64,000 nucleotides of DNA, from contig NZ_CP109130.1 of the NCBI RefSeq assembly GCF_035917975.1, positions 4,650,001-4,714,000 on the forward strand, in the 5' to 3' direction. Made by a program: the position numbers and the translations under genes. A model generated the notes under the pieces. That model did no database searches. It worked only from the letters and a program-made list of their open reading frames with translations, and was not told where the DNA came from. This stretch comes from Streptosporangium sp. NBC_01756 (GTDB lineage: Bacteria; Actinomycetota; Actinomycetes; Streptosporangiales; Streptosporangiaceae). Each line of letters begins with the position of its first letter. The first letter of the stretch is position 1. Positions 51,156-58,134 of the stretch are shown here, piece after piece.

Positions 51156-51507
51156 AAGGGCTTTGTTCGGACTGCGGCGCACATCGCTCCCGAGGCGTGT
51201 GCCATCGACGATGTCGGCTTTCCCGAGGACGGCTACGACTCGCCGGGGTGGCGCGGATGTACCGCGGCGCGCTGGGCAAACGCGGCAACCGCCAGATCGG
51301 CGTCCGTGTGAACCTGGTGTCGGACCGCGCGTCCCCGGCTGTCAACTGTCGCCTGTTCCTGCCCGAGAGCCGGGACGACCTGACCCGCTACGCGGTCCTC
51401 CGCGAACTCCAGGCCCTCCTGGCCACCTGGACCGGCGCCTGTTCGATATGCGGCCGACCCGCACCAACCCCCGAATCCCATCACAGGGCCTGACAAAGCC
51501 CTACTAG
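51152..51507 (+). mobile_element. IS701-type remnant with TIRs and CTAG duplication
   Basis: A 348-bp element at 51156-51503 with ends AAGGGCTTTGT and, inverted, TAGGGCTTTGT (10 of 11 matching). It is flanked by CTAG on both sides (51152-51155 and 51504-51507), the YTAR-type 4-bp target duplication known for the IS701 family. It contains only a broken transposase fragment, so it is immobile by itself but could be moved in trans. Confidence 0.8.
51171..51493 (+). pseudogene. Frameshifted, internally deleted IS701-family transposase
   Basis: The first frame reads AIDDVGFPEDGYDSPG; the second continues VARMYRGALGKRGNRQIGVRVNLVSDRASPAVNCRLFLPES. A single G lost in a G-run at about 51248 explains the shift. 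This is the IS701 DDE core around its catalytic Asp. The rest of the core is deleted and fused to a C-terminal piece, RYAVLRELQALLATWTGACSICGR. Confidence 0.75.
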
Positions 51508-52655
51508 GACGGTTCGGGAGCTTCCCAGCGGGTGACCGAGAAGGTCGCGGATACGGGGGCCTCGGCGGTCACGGCGGTCACCTTCAGCAGGGCGACGTAC
51601 TTCTCGAAGCTGTCGAACATGCAGAACCGGTCCCCGGCCCGCAGTTCGGATACCGGCACGTCGAGGTCGTTACGCTCGCCGCGCGCCGCGGCGTCCTGGC
51701 AGGCGGTGATGTCCGGGTCGGCGCCGCCCTCCACCCGGGCCACGTATCCGCCGAACCGCACCTTCGGGCTTCCGGACAGGCAACTCGGAAAGTACTCGAC
51801 GTCCCCTCCGCCACCGGACAGTGTGTGCCGGTACCTGACGCGCGGCAGGTCCGAACCGATCCCGACGCCGCCGATGCCGCAGTCGCGTGCCTTGGCCACG
51901 TCGTCGGCCACCGTGAAGGGCTGGTTCTCGTAGACCTTCTCACCGGGCTGTGCCGGCGGGCCCTCGGCCCTGGCCGGCCCGGCCCACAGGGTCGCCGACA
52001 ACGTGAGCTCCGCAACCGGGGAGCCGCTCACCTTCACCACGCGCAGGAGGACCACGCGGCCCTCCGCGGCGAAGTCCTCACAGAACCGGTCTCCCACCGC
52101 CAGGGCCTGGGTGCCGTAGCGGTCGATGTCCGTACCGCTGCCGACCGCCGCCCGTGCGGCGTCCCGGCAGGCCGCCTCATCGAGGTCCCCGGCGTCCGCA
52201 GCCGCCTTGGCGACGGCCACGTCGTCGAAGTCGAACCGCCCGTTCGCCGAGGAGCATGGAGGCGACCACGCCAGGATGGGCGGCCTGTCCTCCTCCGTCT
52301 GCTCCCCGTCGTCATTCAGGCGCGGATTCGACTCGTCGGACCCGAGGACGCGCGGCCCGCTGTCCGCGAACTCCACGTAGATGTCCGACGGGCATCCGTT
52401 CTTGATCGCCTGGACGTCACTCAGCGAGATCTCCCTGTCCCGGTAGAGCAGCCCGGTCCTGGAAACCGTCGGCGTAGCGGACGCCGACCCTTCCGTCGTA
52501 GGGGATGCTGATCCTTCCGGCGCACGGGACGCCGACCCGGCCGGGCCCGTGGACCGTCCGTCGCCGTCCCCGCAGCCCGCGAGGACCGCCGCCAGAAGCA
52601 GCGCGAGGCCGGCGCCCCGCAGGGCCTTACCCCGACGACTGTTGATTCCCCACAC
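51504..52655 (-). CDS. Lipoprotein with duplicated Cys-containing domain
   Basis: 383 aa. Lipoprotein signal peptide with lipobox LAGC (Cys at about 25), then a Ser/Thr/Pro/Gly-rich linker with three SAS/EGSAS units (30-60). Two similar halves follow, each with CxDAA...GDRFC...VxLLKV...TxW (about 170-235 and 320-380): an internal duplication with paired cysteines. No function is recognised. GTG start with AAGGAG 8 bases upstream. It is last in the operon-like row peptide-ThiF-M50 protease, so an immunity or substrate-binding role is possible; it may also be unrelated. Confidence 0.75.
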   Translation of the reverse strand: MWGINSRRGKALRGAGLALLLAAVLAGCGDGDGRSTGPAGSASRAPEGSASPTTEGSASATPTVSRTGLLYRDREISLSDVQAIKNGCPSDIYVEFADSGPRVLGSDESNPRLNDDGEQTEEDRPPILAWSPPCSSANGRFDFDDVAVAKAAADAGDLDEAACRDAARAAVGSGTDIDRYGTQALAVGDRFCEDFAAEGRVVLLRVVKVSGSPVAELTLSATLWAGPARAEGPPAQPGEKVYENQPFTVADDVAKARDCGIGGVGIGSDLPRVRYRHTLSGGGGDVEYFPSCLSGSPKVRFGGYVARVEGGADPDITACQDAAARGERNDLDVPVSELRAGDRFCMFDSFEKYVALLKVTAVTAEAPVSATFSVTRWEAPEPS

Positions 52656-52738
52656 GTCAACTCCTTGATCAGTTTCGTTGAGCGACTCACCGCATCGACC
52701 GTCGAGGCTCCGCAAGCCGGTTGCCGCACGATGCCCGT

Positions 52739-53932
52739 CTACCGCCGGGTGTACTCCCGGGCGGCCAGGAAGGCGGCCAGGAGGTACGGGCCGAGCAGCA
52801 GGACGGCGCACAGCAACGCATACCAGAACCGCGAGCTGAGCGGCCCGAGCAGAAGCCCCTCGGACGCCCACACCAGCACGGTCACCACGACGGGGGCCAC
52901 GAAGAAGACGAACCAGGCCAGCACCCCGGCGAACCCGGCCAGCCACAGCCACCGGAACCACCGCCCGGCCCGCACGTCGGCGGGCGCGGCCGAGTCCAGC
53001 TCCGCTGCCTGCGCCGGGGTGAGCCTGCCGAACGCACGCCGCAGCATCAGCGTTTTGACCCGCCACAGGTCGCGGCAGCCGAGCGCGTTGACCAGCACGC
53101 CGTACAGGTCGGTGCGCAGGAAGACCATGCACTGCCACAGCAGGCCCGCCAGCTTCACGAACACCCATGTCGAAAGCGTCGCGTCCACCAGGGGGTCCGA
53201 TGGCCACGTCCCTTGCCGGATCAGCAGGCGGGCGCCCAGCAGCAGGCTGAGCAGGACCACGTCCACCGCCATCCCGCCGAGCAGCGGCCCGTAGCGGCGG
53301 CGGCGCGGCACCGTCCAGATCTGGGAGAGGTCGGTCTCCAGGACGGGCAGCATCATCCGCCGATCCATCCCGAACCGGGACTCGACGCCGATCGCCCGGG
53401 CGGCGAGCCAGTGCCCGCCCTCGTGCAGAGCCGTGGAGACCAGGACGAACGGCACGAGCAGCAGCGCGCTCAGCCCGACGTCGTCGAGCAGGAACGCGTC
53501 CCGGGCCGGGTTCGGGAACAGGGACGGCGAGGCGGCGAAGACGGCCAGGCAGAACAGCGCTAGGACGGTGTAGCAGGTCCAGGCCACCGGTCCGAAGAAG
53601 GGACGGGCCGCGCGCTGGCTGACCCCCGCCATCCAGCGCCGCATCTGGATGGGCGCGGTGCGCACGGCCCGGCGTTCCACGTCCGGCTGGTCGTTGACGA
53701 ATCCCAGCTCGGCGAGGGTCGCTACGAACGACGGCATGTCCACGGGCTCACCGGCGAACGCCTCGGCCTCGGCTGCGGCCTCCTCCTCGGTCGCGCCGCG
53801 CAGCAGCGCCGAGATCACCACTCCGCCCACGGCCGGCATGGTCACGAAGGTGCCGCTGGCGGGATCACCGACCAGCACCTCATCGCCCTCCTCGACCACG
53901 CTGAGCGGGCGCAGCGGGACCCTGCCGCTCAT
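52739..53932 (-). CDS. PqqD-like / M50 membrane zinc metalloprotease
   Basis: 397 aa. Residues 8-85 resemble a PqqD/RRE-type domain (VVEEGDEVLVGDPASGTFVTM...LLRGATEEEAAAEA...ATLAELGFV). Membrane helices follow at about 118-135, 150-172, 218-240, 255-272 and later. The S2P motif is HEGGH (His170, Glu171, His174) and the third ligand is probably Asp275 in FLRTDLYGVL, as in the peptide zinc metalloprotease (YydH-like) group. It probably cuts or exports the modified peptide. ATG 53932 lies 4 bases past the ThiF stop, with GGTGAG overlapping that stop. Confidence 0.85.
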   Translation of the reverse strand: MSGRVPLRPLSVVEEGDEVLVGDPASGTFVTMPAVGGVVISALLRGATEEEAAAEAEAFAGEPVDMPSFVATLAELGFVNDQPDVERRAVRTAPIQMRRWMAGVSQRAARPFFGPVAWTCYTVLALFCLAVFAASPSLFPNPARDAFLLDDVGLSALLLVPFVLVSTALHEGGHWLAARAIGVESRFGMDRRMMLPVLETDLSQIWTVPRRRRYGPLLGGMAVDVVLLSLLLGARLLIRQGTWPSDPLVDATLSTWVFVKLAGLLWQCMVFLRTDLYGVLVNALGCRDLWRVKTLMLRRAFGRLTPAQAAELDSAAPADVRAGRWFRWLWLAGFAGVLAWFVFFVAPVVVTVLVWASEGLLLGPLSSRFWYALLCAVLLLGPYLLAAFLAAREYTRR

Positions 53933-53936
53933 CGGC

Positions 53937-55025
53937 TCACCGCCGGACCAGCGCGCACGCCGGGCAGGCGGGGTCACGGGGGAACGGTTGCCACACTGGG
54001 ACGAGCCCGTTGAGCAGGTCGACGACCACCCGGAACCCGGCCGCGCGCGGCGGCTCGACGCCGGTCAGGTAACGCATGACCTCGTAGGCGACCAGCGACC
54101 CGACCTGCATCGCCATCGGCCCGGTGAGGCCGTTGGCGAGCCGCAGCCCGCGGGTGAGCCGATGGGCGACCGCCGCGGTCGTGCGTTCGTCCGGGCGGGG
54201 CAGGTCGGATTCGTCGCAGCGCAGGCAGGCGCTCTGGCCCGGGTTGACGGAGAAGTAGATGAGCTGGGTGCGGGTCATCCCGCCGGCCACCCAGGGGACG
54301 CCCGCGCGCAGCGCCGCCTCGTTGACCCATAGGTTCGCGTCCAGCGCGCCGTCGAGGCCGCCGGCGATCACATGGACGTCCCCGGTCAGGTCCTTGAGGT
54401 CGTCCGGGCCGGAGATCCACCGGTCCACGGCGCGGACCTCGATGCCCGGGTCGTACTCGCGCACCCATTCGGCGGCGCGTTCCGCCTTCGACCGGCCGAT
54501 GTCGGCGTGCTGGTAGAGGAACTGGCGGGCGAAGTTGCGCGGAGCGATGTCGTCGCGGTCCACCAGCGTCAGCGCGCCGACGCCGAGCCCGGCCAGGCAC
54601 TGCACGAGGGCCGAGCCGCCGCCGCCCGCACCGAGCACGAGGACGTGGGAGTCGCGCAGCCGCCGGACGAACTCCGCTCGTGACCTGCCGAGCCGGGCGA
54701 AGACCCCGAAGAACGTCAGGTTGGAGAAATGCCGCTCGTCGGCGACCGGATCGCCCAGCAGGCGTTCGTCGGCGTTCTCGACCAGGCCGAGGAAGTCGAG
54801 CCCGGTGAGACCGTCGCGGACGTCGTCTCCTGTGACGGCCACGCCTCGCGCGGTCAGCGCCTCGCTCAGCTCCTCCGCCGTGGCCGGCCCGCGGGCCAGC
54901 TCTTCGAGGAGAGCCGCGATCCGGCCGTCCGGATCAGCCAGCGTGTACGCCTCGCGCGGGTCGTGGACCACCACCAGCTCGTCGCCGAGAGACTCCCAGG
55001 CGCACTCTTTCAACATCACCAGCAT
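53937..55025 (-). CDS. RRE-ThiF: E1-like adenylyltransferase with PqqD-like N-terminus
   Basis: 362 aa. Residues 5-85 form a PqqD/RRE-like peptide-binding domain (ELVVVHDPREAYTLADPDG...LLEELARGPATAEELSEAL). The E1/ThiF domain has GAGGGG (132-137), DRDDIAPRNFARQ (Arg163, Asn164, Arg167) and two CxxC pairs (Cys267/270 and Cys354/357) for zinc. Such enzymes adenylate a peptide C-terminus (MccB) or assist azoline formation. The 18-aa peptide gene lies directly upstream, so that is the likely substrate. It is followed by the metalloprotease gene in one operon. Confidence 0.88.
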   Translation of the reverse strand: MLVMLKECAWESLGDELVVVHDPREAYTLADPDGRIAALLEELARGPATAEELSEALTARGVAVTGDDVRDGLTGLDFLGLVENADERLLGDPVADERHFSNLTFFGVFARLGRSRAEFVRRLRDSHVLVLGAGGGGSALVQCLAGLGVGALTLVDRDDIAPRNFARQFLYQHADIGRSKAERAAEWVREYDPGIEVRAVDRWISGPDDLKDLTGDVHVIAGGLDGALDANLWVNEAALRAGVPWVAGGMTRTQLIYFSVNPGQSACLRCDESDLPRPDERTTAAVAHRLTRGLRLANGLTGPMAMQVGSLVAYEVMRYLTGVEPPRAAGFRVVVDLLNGLVPVWQPFPRDPACPACALVRR

Positions 55026-55053
55026 CGCTCATCCGCATCGCTCGTCGGGACGG

Positions 55054-55092
55054 AGCCGGTCGGGAGGCGGCCGTGCCGCCTCCCGACCGGCT
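55054..55092 (-). terminator. Attenuator-like hairpin between peptide and ThiF genes
   Basis: An 18-bp perfect stem AGCCGGTCGGGAGGCGGC with loop CGT, 13 bases after the peptide stop and 28 bases before the ThiF start. It has no T-run. In this position it would hold back read-through and favour the short peptide messenger over the enzyme messenger. Confidence 0.75.
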
Positions 55093-55105
55093 GAGAGGCG
55101 GTGCC

Positions 55106-55162
55106 TCAGGTCATGAACTGGGTGGCCTTGACGGCCTCCACCTTGCGAACCTCGATCTTCAT
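55106..55162 (-). CDS. 18-aa putative RiPP precursor peptide
   Basis: ATG at 55162 preceded by AAGGAGGTG, an almost full anti-ribosome match with proper spacing. The peptide is MKIEVRKVEAVKATQFMT, then TGA. The front MKIEVRKVE is charged and beta-like, as in leaders that bind PqqD/RRE domains; the core would be a few C-terminal residues (around KATQFMT). There is no Cys; Ser/Thr are limited to two Thr. It is first in a row with RRE-ThiF and the M50 protease. It could instead be an uncut signalling peptide. Confidence 0.7.
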   Translation of the reverse strand: MKIEVRKVEAVKATQFMT

Positions 55163-55272
55163 CTCATCCACCTCCTTCCAGATGTCTTTGATCAAGATCC
55201 TCCCTTCGCCCACAGAAACCGCATATGGTCGCCATAGAAGGTGCAGAACCGCTGATCGTTCCGGGAGACGAA
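55163..55272. promoter_or_regulatory. Divergent promoter of the peptide cluster
   Basis: 110 bp between the peptide start and the regulator start. It includes an AT-richer part (GATGTCTTTGATCAAGATCC), an inverted TATGG-TCG-CCATA at about 55223-55235, and a repeated AACCGC (33 bp apart) that could serve as direct repeats for a SARP regulator. Both transcripts would be controlled here. Confidence 0.45.
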
Positions 55273-58134
55273 GTGGACTTCGCGGTCCTCGGACCGGTCC
55301 GGGTCACCAATGCCGGGCAGCCGCTCCGGCTGGCCGCCAAGGTGCGCGCGGTGCTCGGCGTCTTCCTGCTCCATCCGGACACCGTGCTGTCCAGGGACCG
55401 GCTGATCGCCTCGGTGTGGGACGACCCGCCCCGGTCCGCCCTGCCGAACCTCCAGACGTACCTGACCGCGCTGCGCCGCGCCGCGATCGAGGTCGAGACC
55501 GTGCCGCACGGCTACTGCCTGCGCCTCGGCCCCGACCGGCTCGATCTGCTCGCCTTCGACGAGGCTGTACGGCGAGCCCGGTTGGAGGCGGCGGGCGGCG
55601 ACGCCGCCACGGCGAACCGGCTGTTCGCCGAGGCGCTGGCGCTGTGGCGCGGCCGACCGGCCGAGGACGTGCCGCTGGCCGCGACGATGCAGGCGCGCGT
55701 CGCCGAGCTGGAGGAGCGCCGGGAGAACGCCCGGCTCAGCTGGATCGACGTGCGCCTGCGGCTCGGCCTGCACGACGAGCTCGTCGGTGAGCTGACACCG
55801 CTGGTGGAGGCCGCGCCGCTCAACGAACGCCTGTGGCACCGGTTCATGCTGGCGCTGCACCGGGCGGGCCGGCGTGCCGAGGCGCTGGAGGCGTACCGGC
55901 GGGCCCGCTCGACGCTCGTCGCCGAGCTGGGGGTGGAACCCGGCCAGGAACTACGCGGCCTGCAGGCGGCGGTCCTCGACGACGCCCCCGTCCCGGCCCC
56001 CGCGCCGGAGACGATCCGGGAACCCGCCTGGACGGGGATCTGCCTGCTCCCGGCCGACATCGCCGACTTCGCCGGCCGCGGGGGCGAGACCCGTGACCTG
56101 GTCGCCGCGCTGGACGGCACCGGGACGGCGCCGGTGATCGTGACGGTGTCGGGGCCGCCCGGCGTCGGGAAGAGCGCGCTGGCGGTCCATGTCGCGCATC
56201 TGGTACGGCAGCGATATCCGGACGGCCAGCTGTTCGTCCGGCTGTGTGACGCCTCGGCGTCGCCCCGCGACCCAGCCGACGCGCTCGCGGAGCTGTTGCG
56301 GGCGCTCGGCGTGGACTCCGCCGGCCTGCCCTCCTCCGTCGAGGAGCGGGCGGCGATGTACCGGGCCAAGGTCGCCGACCGGGCGGTGCTCGTGCTGCTG
56401 GACGACGCAGCCGCCGAGGCCCAGGTGGAACCGCTGATCCCCGGGACTCCCGGGTCGGCGGTCCTCGTCACCTCCCGCGGGCCGCTGCCCGCGATGCCCG
56501 GCGCGATCGCGTACGCGCTGGACGTGCCGCCGACCGCCGACGCCCGCGACCTGCTCGCGGGCGTGGCCGGGGCGAGCCGGGTGGCGAGCGACCCCGAATC
56601 GGCGGAGGCGATCGTACGCGCCTGCGGGCGGTTGCCGCTTGCACTGCGCATCGCCGGGGCGCGGCTGGTGACCCGGCCTGCCTGGCCGCTGGCCGAGCTG
56701 GCGCGGCGGCTCGCCGACGCCCCGGCGCTGAGCGAGCTGCGTGCGGGCCACCTGGACGTCCGCGCCACGTTCGGGGCGAGCTACGCGGCGCTGTCGGCGC
56801 CCGCGCGGCGCGCGTTCCGGCTGCTCGGATCGGTGGCCGCCGACGGCGTGGCCGCCTGGACGGTGGCCGCGCTGGCGGGCGCGACCGTGCGCGACGTGGA
56901 CGGCTCCCTGGAGGAGCTGGCCGCCGCCGGACTGATCACCGCCGGTGACGCCGATGCCGCGGACCAGCCCCGCTACCGCATGCATGACCTGCTGCGCGGC
57001 TTCGCCGCCGAGCTGTTCGTCACGGAGGAGAACGGGCGGAGCCGGGCGGCGGCGCTACGCCGGGTCGCCGCCACGGCCCGGGACCATGCCGCCGGCGCCG
57101 CCCGCGAACTGCCTCTCGCCTTTGCCCCGCCCCTGCCCGGCAGCCCGGCCCGGACGCCGCCCTGCCCGGAGGGCGGCGCCTGGCTGACGGCGGAGCGCGG
57201 TGTGCTCGTCGCCGTGGCTGAGACCACCGCCCGCGCCGGGCTGGTGCGCGAAGCGGCCGAACTCGCCTACGCGCTGGCGCCGTTCCTGATCGTGCGCGGT
57301 TTCCACGACGACGCCGTCCGCATGCTGGGGACGGCCGCCGATGCCGCCGCCGCGGCGGGTGACGCCGCCGCCGAGACGCGCCTGCGGCTGGTGCGCGCTG
57401 ACGCCGAGGTGGACCGCAGACGCGCCGGGGAGGTCGCCGACGAGTTCCGCCACCTGCTCGACCGCTGCTCGCGGGCGGGGGATCAGCACGCCGCCGCGTA
57501 CGCGTCGCTCGGGGTCGCCGCCACTCTGGAGGCGGACCTGGGGTCCGCGCTCGCCGCCGCCACCCTGGCCGCCGAGCGGTTCGACGCGCTGGGCGACGGG
57601 CATGGCCTGCTGAGCGCGTGGACCGAGATCGCCGCGATCCAGTTCTTCCTGGACCGCCACGACGACGCCGCGGCGACCTGCCGCCGGGCCCTCGCCCGTG
57701 CCGAGGGACACAGCGCCGTCCACCGGGCCCGCTTCCTGCGGATGCTCGGCATCGCCTGCTACGAGACGGGCCGCGTCGAGGAGGCGATCGGCTACTACCG
57801 GGTCTGCCTGGATCTCTGCCGGGACTTGCGGTGGAACACCGGCGAGCGGCTGGCGCTGCACCGGCTGGCCCAGGCCGAGGCCGCGCTGGGCCGCCACGAC
57901 AACGCCACCGGCATCCTCCTCCGGTGCGCGGAGATGTTCGTCAACGCCGGAGACACTCGGGGAGAGGCGCTGATCTCCTACACGTTGGGCGAGATCAGCC
58001 GGTGGCTGGGCGACGAACGGGCCGCGCTGGCCCACTTCACCACCTGCCTCCACCGGCTCGACCCGCTCAACGAACACGTCTGGTCCGCTCGCACCCGCAA
58101 CCAGATCGCCCGCTCCCGGGCCGCTCTCGGCTGA
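55273..58134 (+). CDS. AfsR/SARP-type regulator with NB-ARC and TPR domains
   Basis: 953 aa. An OmpR-like winged helix (1-90, VDFAVLGPVRVTNAGQPLRL) and bacterial transcriptional activation domain (94-237) are followed by an NB-ARC ATPase (P-loop GPPGVGKSA 294-302; LVLLDDAA; GLPLAL-like CGRLPLALRIAG), a winged connector, and a TPR-like helical region from about 630. This is the AfsR layout that switches on nearby secondary-metabolite genes. GTG 55273 has GGGAG 7 bases upstream and gives the normal SARP N-terminus; ATG 55225 adds 16 unmatched residues. Confidence 0.9.
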   Translation: MDFAVLGPVRVTNAGQPLRLAAKVRAVLGVFLLHPDTVLSRDRLIASVWDDPPRSALPNLQTYLTALRRAAIEVETVPHGYCLRLGPDRLDLLAFDEAVRRARLEAAGGDAATANRLFAEALALWRGRPAEDVPLAATMQARVAELEERRENARLSWIDVRLRLGLHDELVGELTPLVEAAPLNERLWHRFMLALHRAGRRAEALEAYRRARSTLVAELGVEPGQELRGLQAAVLDDAPVPAPAPETIREPAWTGICLLPADIADFAGRGGETRDLVAALDGTGTAPVIVTVSGPPGVGKSALAVHVAHLVRQRYPDGQLFVRLCDASASPRDPADALAELLRALGVDSAGLPSSVEERAAMYRAKVADRAVLVLLDDAAAEAQVEPLIPGTPGSAVLVTSRGPLPAMPGAIAYALDVPPTADARDLLAGVAGASRVASDPESAEAIVRACGRLPLALRIAGARLVTRPAWPLAELARRLADAPALSELRAGHLDVRATFGASYAALSAPARRAFRLLGSVAADGVAAWTVAALAGATVRDVDGSLEELAAAGLITAGDADAADQPRYRMHDLLRGFAAELFVTEENGRSRAAALRRVAATARDHAAGAARELPLAFAPPLPGSPARTPPCPEGGAWLTAERGVLVAVAETTARAGLVREAAELAYALAPFLIVRGFHDDAVRMLGTAADAAAAAGDAAAETRLRLVRADAEVDRRRAGEVADEFRHLLDRCSRAGDQHAAAYASLGVAATLEADLGSALAAATLAAERFDALGDGHGLLSAWTEIAAIQFFLDRHDDAAATCRRALARAEGHSAVHRARFLRMLGIACYETGRVEEAIGYYRVCLDLCRDLRWNTGERLALHRLAQAEAALGRHDNATGILLRCAEMFVNAGDTRGEALISYTLGEISRWLGDERAALAHFTTCLHRLDPLNEHVWSARTRNQIARSRAALG

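Follow-up and report, generated by a model that had tools for sequence, protein, structure and literature searches.

Ribosomally synthesised and post-translationally modified peptides (RiPPs) made by ThiF-like adenylyltransferases are a described kind of natural product. MccB, PaaA, GrcB, EnfB and IndF are reported to adenylate a carboxylate that varied nucleophiles then attack, and the characterised enzymes named there come from enterobacteria, Bacillus, streptococci and enterococci (PMC12250964, PMC12150305). Here, we analyse a locus in a window of 64,000 nucleotides from the 9.0-Mb single-contig genome of Streptosporangium sp. NBC_01756 (NZ_CP109130.1, positions 4,650,001 to 4,714,000). On its minus strand, the gene of the peptide MKIEVRKVEAVKATQFMT is followed by the genes of a 362-residue ThiF protein with an N-terminal RiPP recognition element (RRE) and of a 397-residue M50-type protease, and an AfsR-like Streptomyces antibiotic regulatory protein (SARP) is encoded divergently. 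Probably, these genes form a minimal set for a RiPP of the ThiF-like adenylyltransferase kind, with SARP control, leader binding, ring closure and release by the M50 protease. An earlier, sequence-only reading had held that the cluster fits no common class, which was too strong in view of the RiPPs described in the two papers above. The kind is known; a family of this kind with an RRE-bearing site-2 protease and a SARP was not found in the literature searched, preprints, supplements and most subscription papers lying outside its scope.

Enterofaecin combines, like the window cluster, a short precursor (EnfA, 21 residues), an RRE-ThiF and a leader with a (V/I)RK motif, and EnfB, described as activating the C-terminal carboxylate, carries R167, K180 and D225 under the same numbering as the window ThiF (PMC12250964). 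As described, the enterofaecin type occurs in Enterococcus and Streptococcus together with transporters, whereas the present family is actinobacterial, carries the RRE-M50 protease and the SARP, and has no conserved transporter. The enterofaecin-type leader reads (V/I)RKA by description, compared with mostly [VI]RKV here, and the core of that type is WWIVI-like, compared with QFMT in the window; among our 39 distinct cores only AWWIVA (L095) is similar. IndA/IndF of Streptococcus pneumoniae is likewise a small set of precursor, RRE-ThiF and protease with a ring closed onto the C-terminus, but it is described with an M16 protease, a transporter and a Trp nucleophile (PMC12150305), and the window core contains no Trp. 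Membrane M50 proteases as processing enzymes, as in the window, are named for epipeptides (EpeP) and pearlins (TglG, TmoG) in PMC10885120. The window M50 has an RRE fused in front. MccB of microcin C shares 19% identity with the window ThiF over the aligned part, and here we find neither a C-terminal Asn rule nor a heptapeptide. PaaA of pantocin A acts on core glutamates and, as far as described, requires a follower peptide, whereas the window core has no Glu and leaves no room for a follower. The review of ThiF-like RiPP enzymes makes no mention of Actinomyc-, actinobacteria, Streptomyces, Streptosporangi- or M50, and a passage of PMC7470986 refers to ThiF solely under the name ocin-ThiF. This actinobacterial family may be among the unannotated ThiF groups shown in Figure S1 of PMC12150305.

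The peptide gene (55106..55162, minus strand, 18 codons and stop) starts with ATG and is preceded by the Shine-Dalgarno sequence AAGGAGG (55171..55177), which ends 8 nt before the ATG, so that the gene that the sequence-only reading had placed first in the row is indeed found there. It encodes the leader MKIEVRKVEAVKAT (55162-55121) and the core QFMT (55120-55109). The frame stays open further upstream, where a GTG start would give 35 codons. Seven of 30 relatives (L014, L018, L020-L023, L032) have no ATG or GTG in this frame ahead of the peptide's ATG, which a Shine-Dalgarno sequence precedes; 18 residues is therefore the better reading and the 35-codon version is disfavoured. A protein search of genome contigs gave 31 related loci, 30 of which carry a peptide of the same type before ThiF, at a gap of 59-124 nt and behind purine-rich Shine-Dalgarno-like sequences; the remaining locus (L033) matches ThiF residues 165-358 only and shows no M50 by tblastn. 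A strict pattern of start codon, Shine-Dalgarno sequence and leader box, which requires Thr14, matches 36 times in the 582,764 bp of window and loci, each time at a cluster. In 38 more distant loci (297,139 bp) it matches at 24, always within 2.8 kb of ThiF and on the same strand, and nowhere else. This confirms that the peptide gene is real and that the pattern matches go beyond chance. A ribosomal precursor with leader and core is thus encoded beside its enzymes, as in a RiPP.

The distant loci come from a family-wide profile search of 297 genomes, a set that overlaps with that of the protein search. At an E value of 1e-40 or lower it returned at least 69 places in at least 47 genomes, with six candidates scored per genome among those listed and places possibly missed. 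All 31 closest places, the window included, carry the peptide. It is also present at 31 of the other 38, namely the 24 with the strict pattern, L065 read from the sequence, and L094, L139, L141, L145, L146 and L147 from a similarity search. In these last six and if the Shine-Dalgarno-bearing start is right, extra residues precede the leader box. The expectation that ThiF/M50 homologues carry a conserved short peptide is thus borne out in most places. Within the family, a separate DNA pattern occurs in 32 of 297 genomes and its reversed control in none, while class-wide it occurs in 5 of 394 genomes and the control in 1. The three class-wide matches outside the genus, G350 (L080), G569 (L087) and G581 (L081), have no ThiF or M50 and were taken as chance; the family matches L076, L077, L078, L079, L082 and L088 lack ThiF. 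L076 (around 3818) is a decayed cluster, in which the peptide box continues into a stretch aligning with the end of the L015 M50 while ThiF and most of M50 are gone. A phylum search matched 231 of 396 genomes. Among the matches listed, nearly all covered the catalytic part only, as MoeB/MoeZ-like enzymes presumably would, and apart from the window, G380 alone (L098, E 4.5e-74) gave an alignment starting at residue 30; the 3,981 bp of L098 showed no leader peptide.

The position of the peptide gene varies. In the close clade it precedes ThiF, in L064-L069 it separates ThiF from M50, and in four Streptomyces plasmids (L127-L130), where the peptide is MEIKVRKVEDVKATGLQV, it follows M50. The plasmid collection has 20 records with ThiF, 19 of them Streptomyces, and these four were examined among the 19. 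In their gene table, which is incomplete, the peptide has no entry, so annotation probably misses this gene.

The leader is nearly constant and the tail is not. Among 39 distinct peptides, position 3 is Ile in 35 and Leu in 4, position 9 is Glu in 36 and Asp in 3, and position 14 is Thr in all 39. Cores comprise 4-10 residues and are highly diverse, for example QFMT, QNPAT, VNGPH, GFAV, AAPPV, GRDATG, QLIHPDS, AACPIHGDC, GNSNSC and AWWIVA. The sequence-only reading had noted a peptide without Cys; this holds for QFMT and does not hold in general, as the distant cores GNSNSC and AACPIHGDC contain Cys. For leader codons 2-14, the proportion of synonymous differences (pS) is 0.274 and that of replacement differences (pN) 0.094. 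In contrast, the 17 four-residue tails give pS 0.323 and pN 0.515 and the 11 five-residue tails pS 0.355 and pN 0.440. These values, from 31 distinct nucleotide sequences out of 63 loci (one of them the decayed L076), are descriptive, the sequences being related; they show that replacement changes are scarce in the leader and frequent in the tail. In the ThiF tree, which includes Streptosporangiaceae, Thermomonosporaceae, Pseudonocardiaceae and Streptomycetaceae, like tails cluster. Two clusters with different cores (QFMT, QNPAT) occur together in Streptosporangium sandarakinum (L008/L022) and in Nonomuraea wenchangensis (L010/L032). GNSNSC is found in ten loci with M50 (L075, L089, L090, L092, L132, L134, L136-L138, L140), and the core CGNSNS of L133 and L135, which have no M50 match, resembles a circular permutation of the same motif.

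The ThiF protein (53937..55025, minus strand) matches Pfam ThiF with E 1.5e-48 and consists of an RRE at about residues 1-85 and a ThiF domain at 117-355. Its closest relatives in the protein search are from Streptosporangium canum and S. minutum (96-97% identity). The ATP-binding and Mg residues R167, K180 and D225 align with E. coli ThiF and are invariant in 31 sequences. C267, C270, C354 and C357 are invariant as well, and to these we would assign a zinc role. Against TIGR03882 (ocin-ThiF) the protein scores 25.3 bits at a cut-off of 36.9. A YcaO partner, as in azole or azoline RiPPs, is absent from the cluster, as had been stated before; the sole YcaO match of the genome, at 7.498 Mb, is about 2.8 Mb away from the cluster at 4.705 Mb. 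The PqqD/RRE-like N-terminus that the sequence-only reading had proposed models as an RRE fold, fused to the E1-like adenylation domain.

The M50 protein (52739..53932, minus strand) comprises 397 residues from the ATG at 53932, the longest open reading frame (ORF) beginning at a GTG further upstream. Its Pfam match is weak (E 0.037, 13.8 bits at a cut-off of 27.2). The model matches site-2 proteases and places the HExxH motif within a helix of that fold; H170, E171 and H174 of the HEGGH motif (170-174) are invariant in 30 aligned sequences, the window included. Residues 3-81 model as a PqqD-like/RRE fold, so that the proposed membrane metalloprotease with a PqqD-like domain holds up and the N-termini of both enzymes model as RREs. 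The ThiF N-terminal domain of the window has no Pfam match above its cut-off, and in 27 ThiF N-termini Pfam finds mostly helix-turn-helix families, with PqqD in 3. Searched by sequence against the PDB, the isolated N-terminal domains gave no significant match (best E 0.01 and 0.12), the lasso RREs TfuB1 and TbiB1 appearing at E 0.93 and 1.3. Profile comparison between the two N-terminal domains is weak (22.5% probability, E 0.00093). It appears that both enzymes grip the constant N-terminal part of the peptide, the one to activate the variable tail and the other to cut at the membrane.

The divergent AfsR-type regulator (55225..58134, plus strand) had been anticipated correctly and contains BTAD, NB-ARC/AAA and TPR domains. 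The ATG of its longest ORF, at 55225, lies inside a putative operator, which makes the GTG at 55273 the likelier start. This operator (55208..55236, minus strand) consists of the heptamers TATGGCG, TATGCGG and TGTGGGC at 11-bp steps, in a frame read by eye that is the one chosen by script for L007 and L041. Direct repeats with an 11-bp spacing typify SARP sites. Across 40 upstream stretches, triple heptamers at this step reach a mean best score of 15.15 compared with 10.32 (sd 0.24) in 50 mononucleotide shuffles and 9.5-11.0 at other spacings; the stretches are related, so that the sd flatters the result. The window itself scores 13, and L018, L020 and L024, which have no divergent SARP, score lower than the mean (12, 14 and 10). 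Most loci have T[AG]TGGCG-like heptamers. The QNPAT group, in which SARP identity to the window protein is only 33-35%, has TCAGCG-like ones. By tblastn, a SARP-like gene is found in 28 of 31 loci (not in L020, L024 and L033), on the same strand in L018 and downstream in L021 and L029, where the contigs end just upstream. L029 (1517-7379) has two consecutive SARP-like genes after ThiF. Between peptide and ThiF, a hairpin with an 18-bp stem (55054..55092, minus strand) folds with -58.2 kcal/mol for a 91-nt stretch (z -5.5). In 30 relatives, the energy of this region is always below the shuffled mean, z is below -1 in 23, and a stem of at least 8 perfect pairs is present in 19; perhaps the hairpin tunes the peptide-to-enzyme ratio. 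A scan for sigma-70-type promoters and terminators found nothing.

From these data we infer the following course. Bound to its 11-bp-spaced heptamers, the SARP would switch on the peptide operon, and the hairpin 3' of the peptide gene may hold the peptide in excess over the enzymes. The ThiF RRE would bind the 14-residue leader at its [VI]RKVE stretch and direct the C-terminus of QFMT to an active site like that of MccB, for adenylation of the C-terminal carboxylate with ATP; activation of the peptide near its C-terminus would fit the enzyme's family. An internal nucleophile could then displace AMP and close a small ring. It cannot generally be a Cys, Ser, Thr, Lys, Tyr or Trp side chain of the core, because 10 of 39 distinct cores hold none of these. 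The best candidates would be Thr14 of the leader (macrolactone), a backbone amide (imide), as reported for EnfB (PMC12250964), or a freed core N-terminus. Through an RRE of its own, the M50 protein would recognise this same leader, cut the peptide near Thr14 and release the product. The earlier interpretation, a peptide modified by ThiF and processed by the protease, is supported in that ThiF/M50 homologues carry a conserved short peptide and both N-termini model as RRE folds.

Several observations weigh against this model. No such peptide was found at 7 of 38 distant places (L071, L072, L073, L093, L096, L143, L144). M50 is near at 30 of the 38, weakly at L095, and has no match at eight (L062, L071, L072, L073, L096, L133, L135, L146). 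Among the 31 loci of the protein search, tblastn finds it in 29 (not in L029 and L033), and L029 carries peptide and ThiF without M50 on its 7.5-kb contig. The structural matches to site-2 proteases are modest (Z 7-9, root-mean-square deviation 3.7-5.5). The invariance of Thr14 is in part a product of search patterns that demanded it, although Thr14 is also seen in pattern-free ORF lists and the similarity search. Tails are nearly fixed inside the QFMT and QNPAT groups, and the diversity therefore lies mostly between clades. In the rough gene call, which undercounts (M50 was found in only 22 loci), no transporter or immunity gene stands out.

Instead of a substrate, the short ORF might be a regulatory leader that attenuates expression, as the strong hairpin behind it would suit. 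Such an attenuator is hardly credible here, given that replacement changes are rare in the leader and numerous in the tail, and given that the ORF also lies between ThiF and M50 or after M50, where attenuation of ThiF is impossible. If the peptide is a substrate, ThiF could link a nucleotide to its C-terminus by a phosphoramidate, giving a peptidyl-nucleotide as in microcin C. The MccB route is described as converting a C-terminal Asn (PMC12250964), whereas only 3 of 39 distinct cores have one and the window core has a terminal Thr. Microcin C-like precursors are described as heptapeptides in the vast majority of cases (PMC6495379), compared with 18-44 residues here. We regard this chemistry as improbable. 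The M50 proteases TglG and TmoG are described as releasing C-terminal modified residues (PMC10885120), and the peptide might accordingly be a pearlin-like scaffold that carries a small molecule built at its C-terminus until M50 removes it. A scaffold is not expected to vary in its tail as seen here. The rough gene call shows no further enzyme gene common to the neighbourhoods, the next clusters reaching 5 of 32 loci, although no profile search for a peptide aminoacyl-tRNA ligase was made. This reading is even less probable than microcin C chemistry.

A further reading concerns the role of the product and is compatible with the ThiF-made, M50-released RiPP that we favour. The product of 4-10 residues would serve as a pheromone that the TPR part of its own SARP senses intracellularly in an autoinduction loop, and not as an antibiotic. 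No other extra partner is as steady as the SARP-like gene, which occurs in 28 of 31 loci and lies close to 8 of the 9 places that come next (L062-L070), the QNPAT group with its most diverged SARPs has deviating operator-like repeats, and the lack of a prominent transporter or immunity gene points the same way. In length, the cores match known intracellular peptide signals. However, among the 29 most distant places only 7 have a SARP match in the locus, and the ten GNSNSC loci have none. With ThiF distance controlled for, TPR distance correlates with tail distance no better (partial correlation 0.377) than M50 does (0.402 and 0.472). We consider the pheromone role possible, if doubtful.

Downstream of M50, the lipoprotein ORF that the sequence-only reading had assigned to the cluster is present (51504-52655, minus strand); it is conserved in 1 of 31 loci (L005) and we reject it as a member. 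Six neighbouring window genes are ordinary (ABC ATPase, TauE/SafE, Rieske protein, HD protein, LuxR-type response regulator, and one without a match). Outside the window, L062 encodes at 1197 a divergent peptide VTIGSRETEPFKATGYEWIML 238 nt before ThiF, with no M50 within its 4-kb locus. L071, L072 and L096, with distant ThiF proteins and no M50 match, have a different short ORF, MIKKSTKRYSVAGG[TA]QKG, upstream with a good Shine-Dalgarno sequence, perhaps a further ThiF peptide type.

We conclude that the cluster appears to represent a family of natural products or peptide signals from soil actinobacteria that has attracted little notice. It would add an actinobacterial family to the ThiF-like RiPPs, one with very short cores, a constant leader with freely changing cores, and a membrane protease that has its own leader-binding domain. 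If one enzyme accepts such different C-termini, it would be of use as a peptide cyclase. Because of the link with SARP regulators, the peptide-signal hypothesis can be tested directly. A bolder and unlikely extension is a large, largely unannotated actinobacterial family of ThiF-made macrocycles, in which 4-10 variable residues are closed onto Thr14 as a lactone, the leader is passed from the ThiF RRE to that of the intramembrane protease, and the released ring is an autoinducer read by the TPR domain of the cognate SARP in SARP-bearing clades. With a Thr14 lactone, no core residue need supply the nucleophile. If true, this would be a peptide quorum-sensing route for actinobacteria, in which operator, regulator and core drift apart together.

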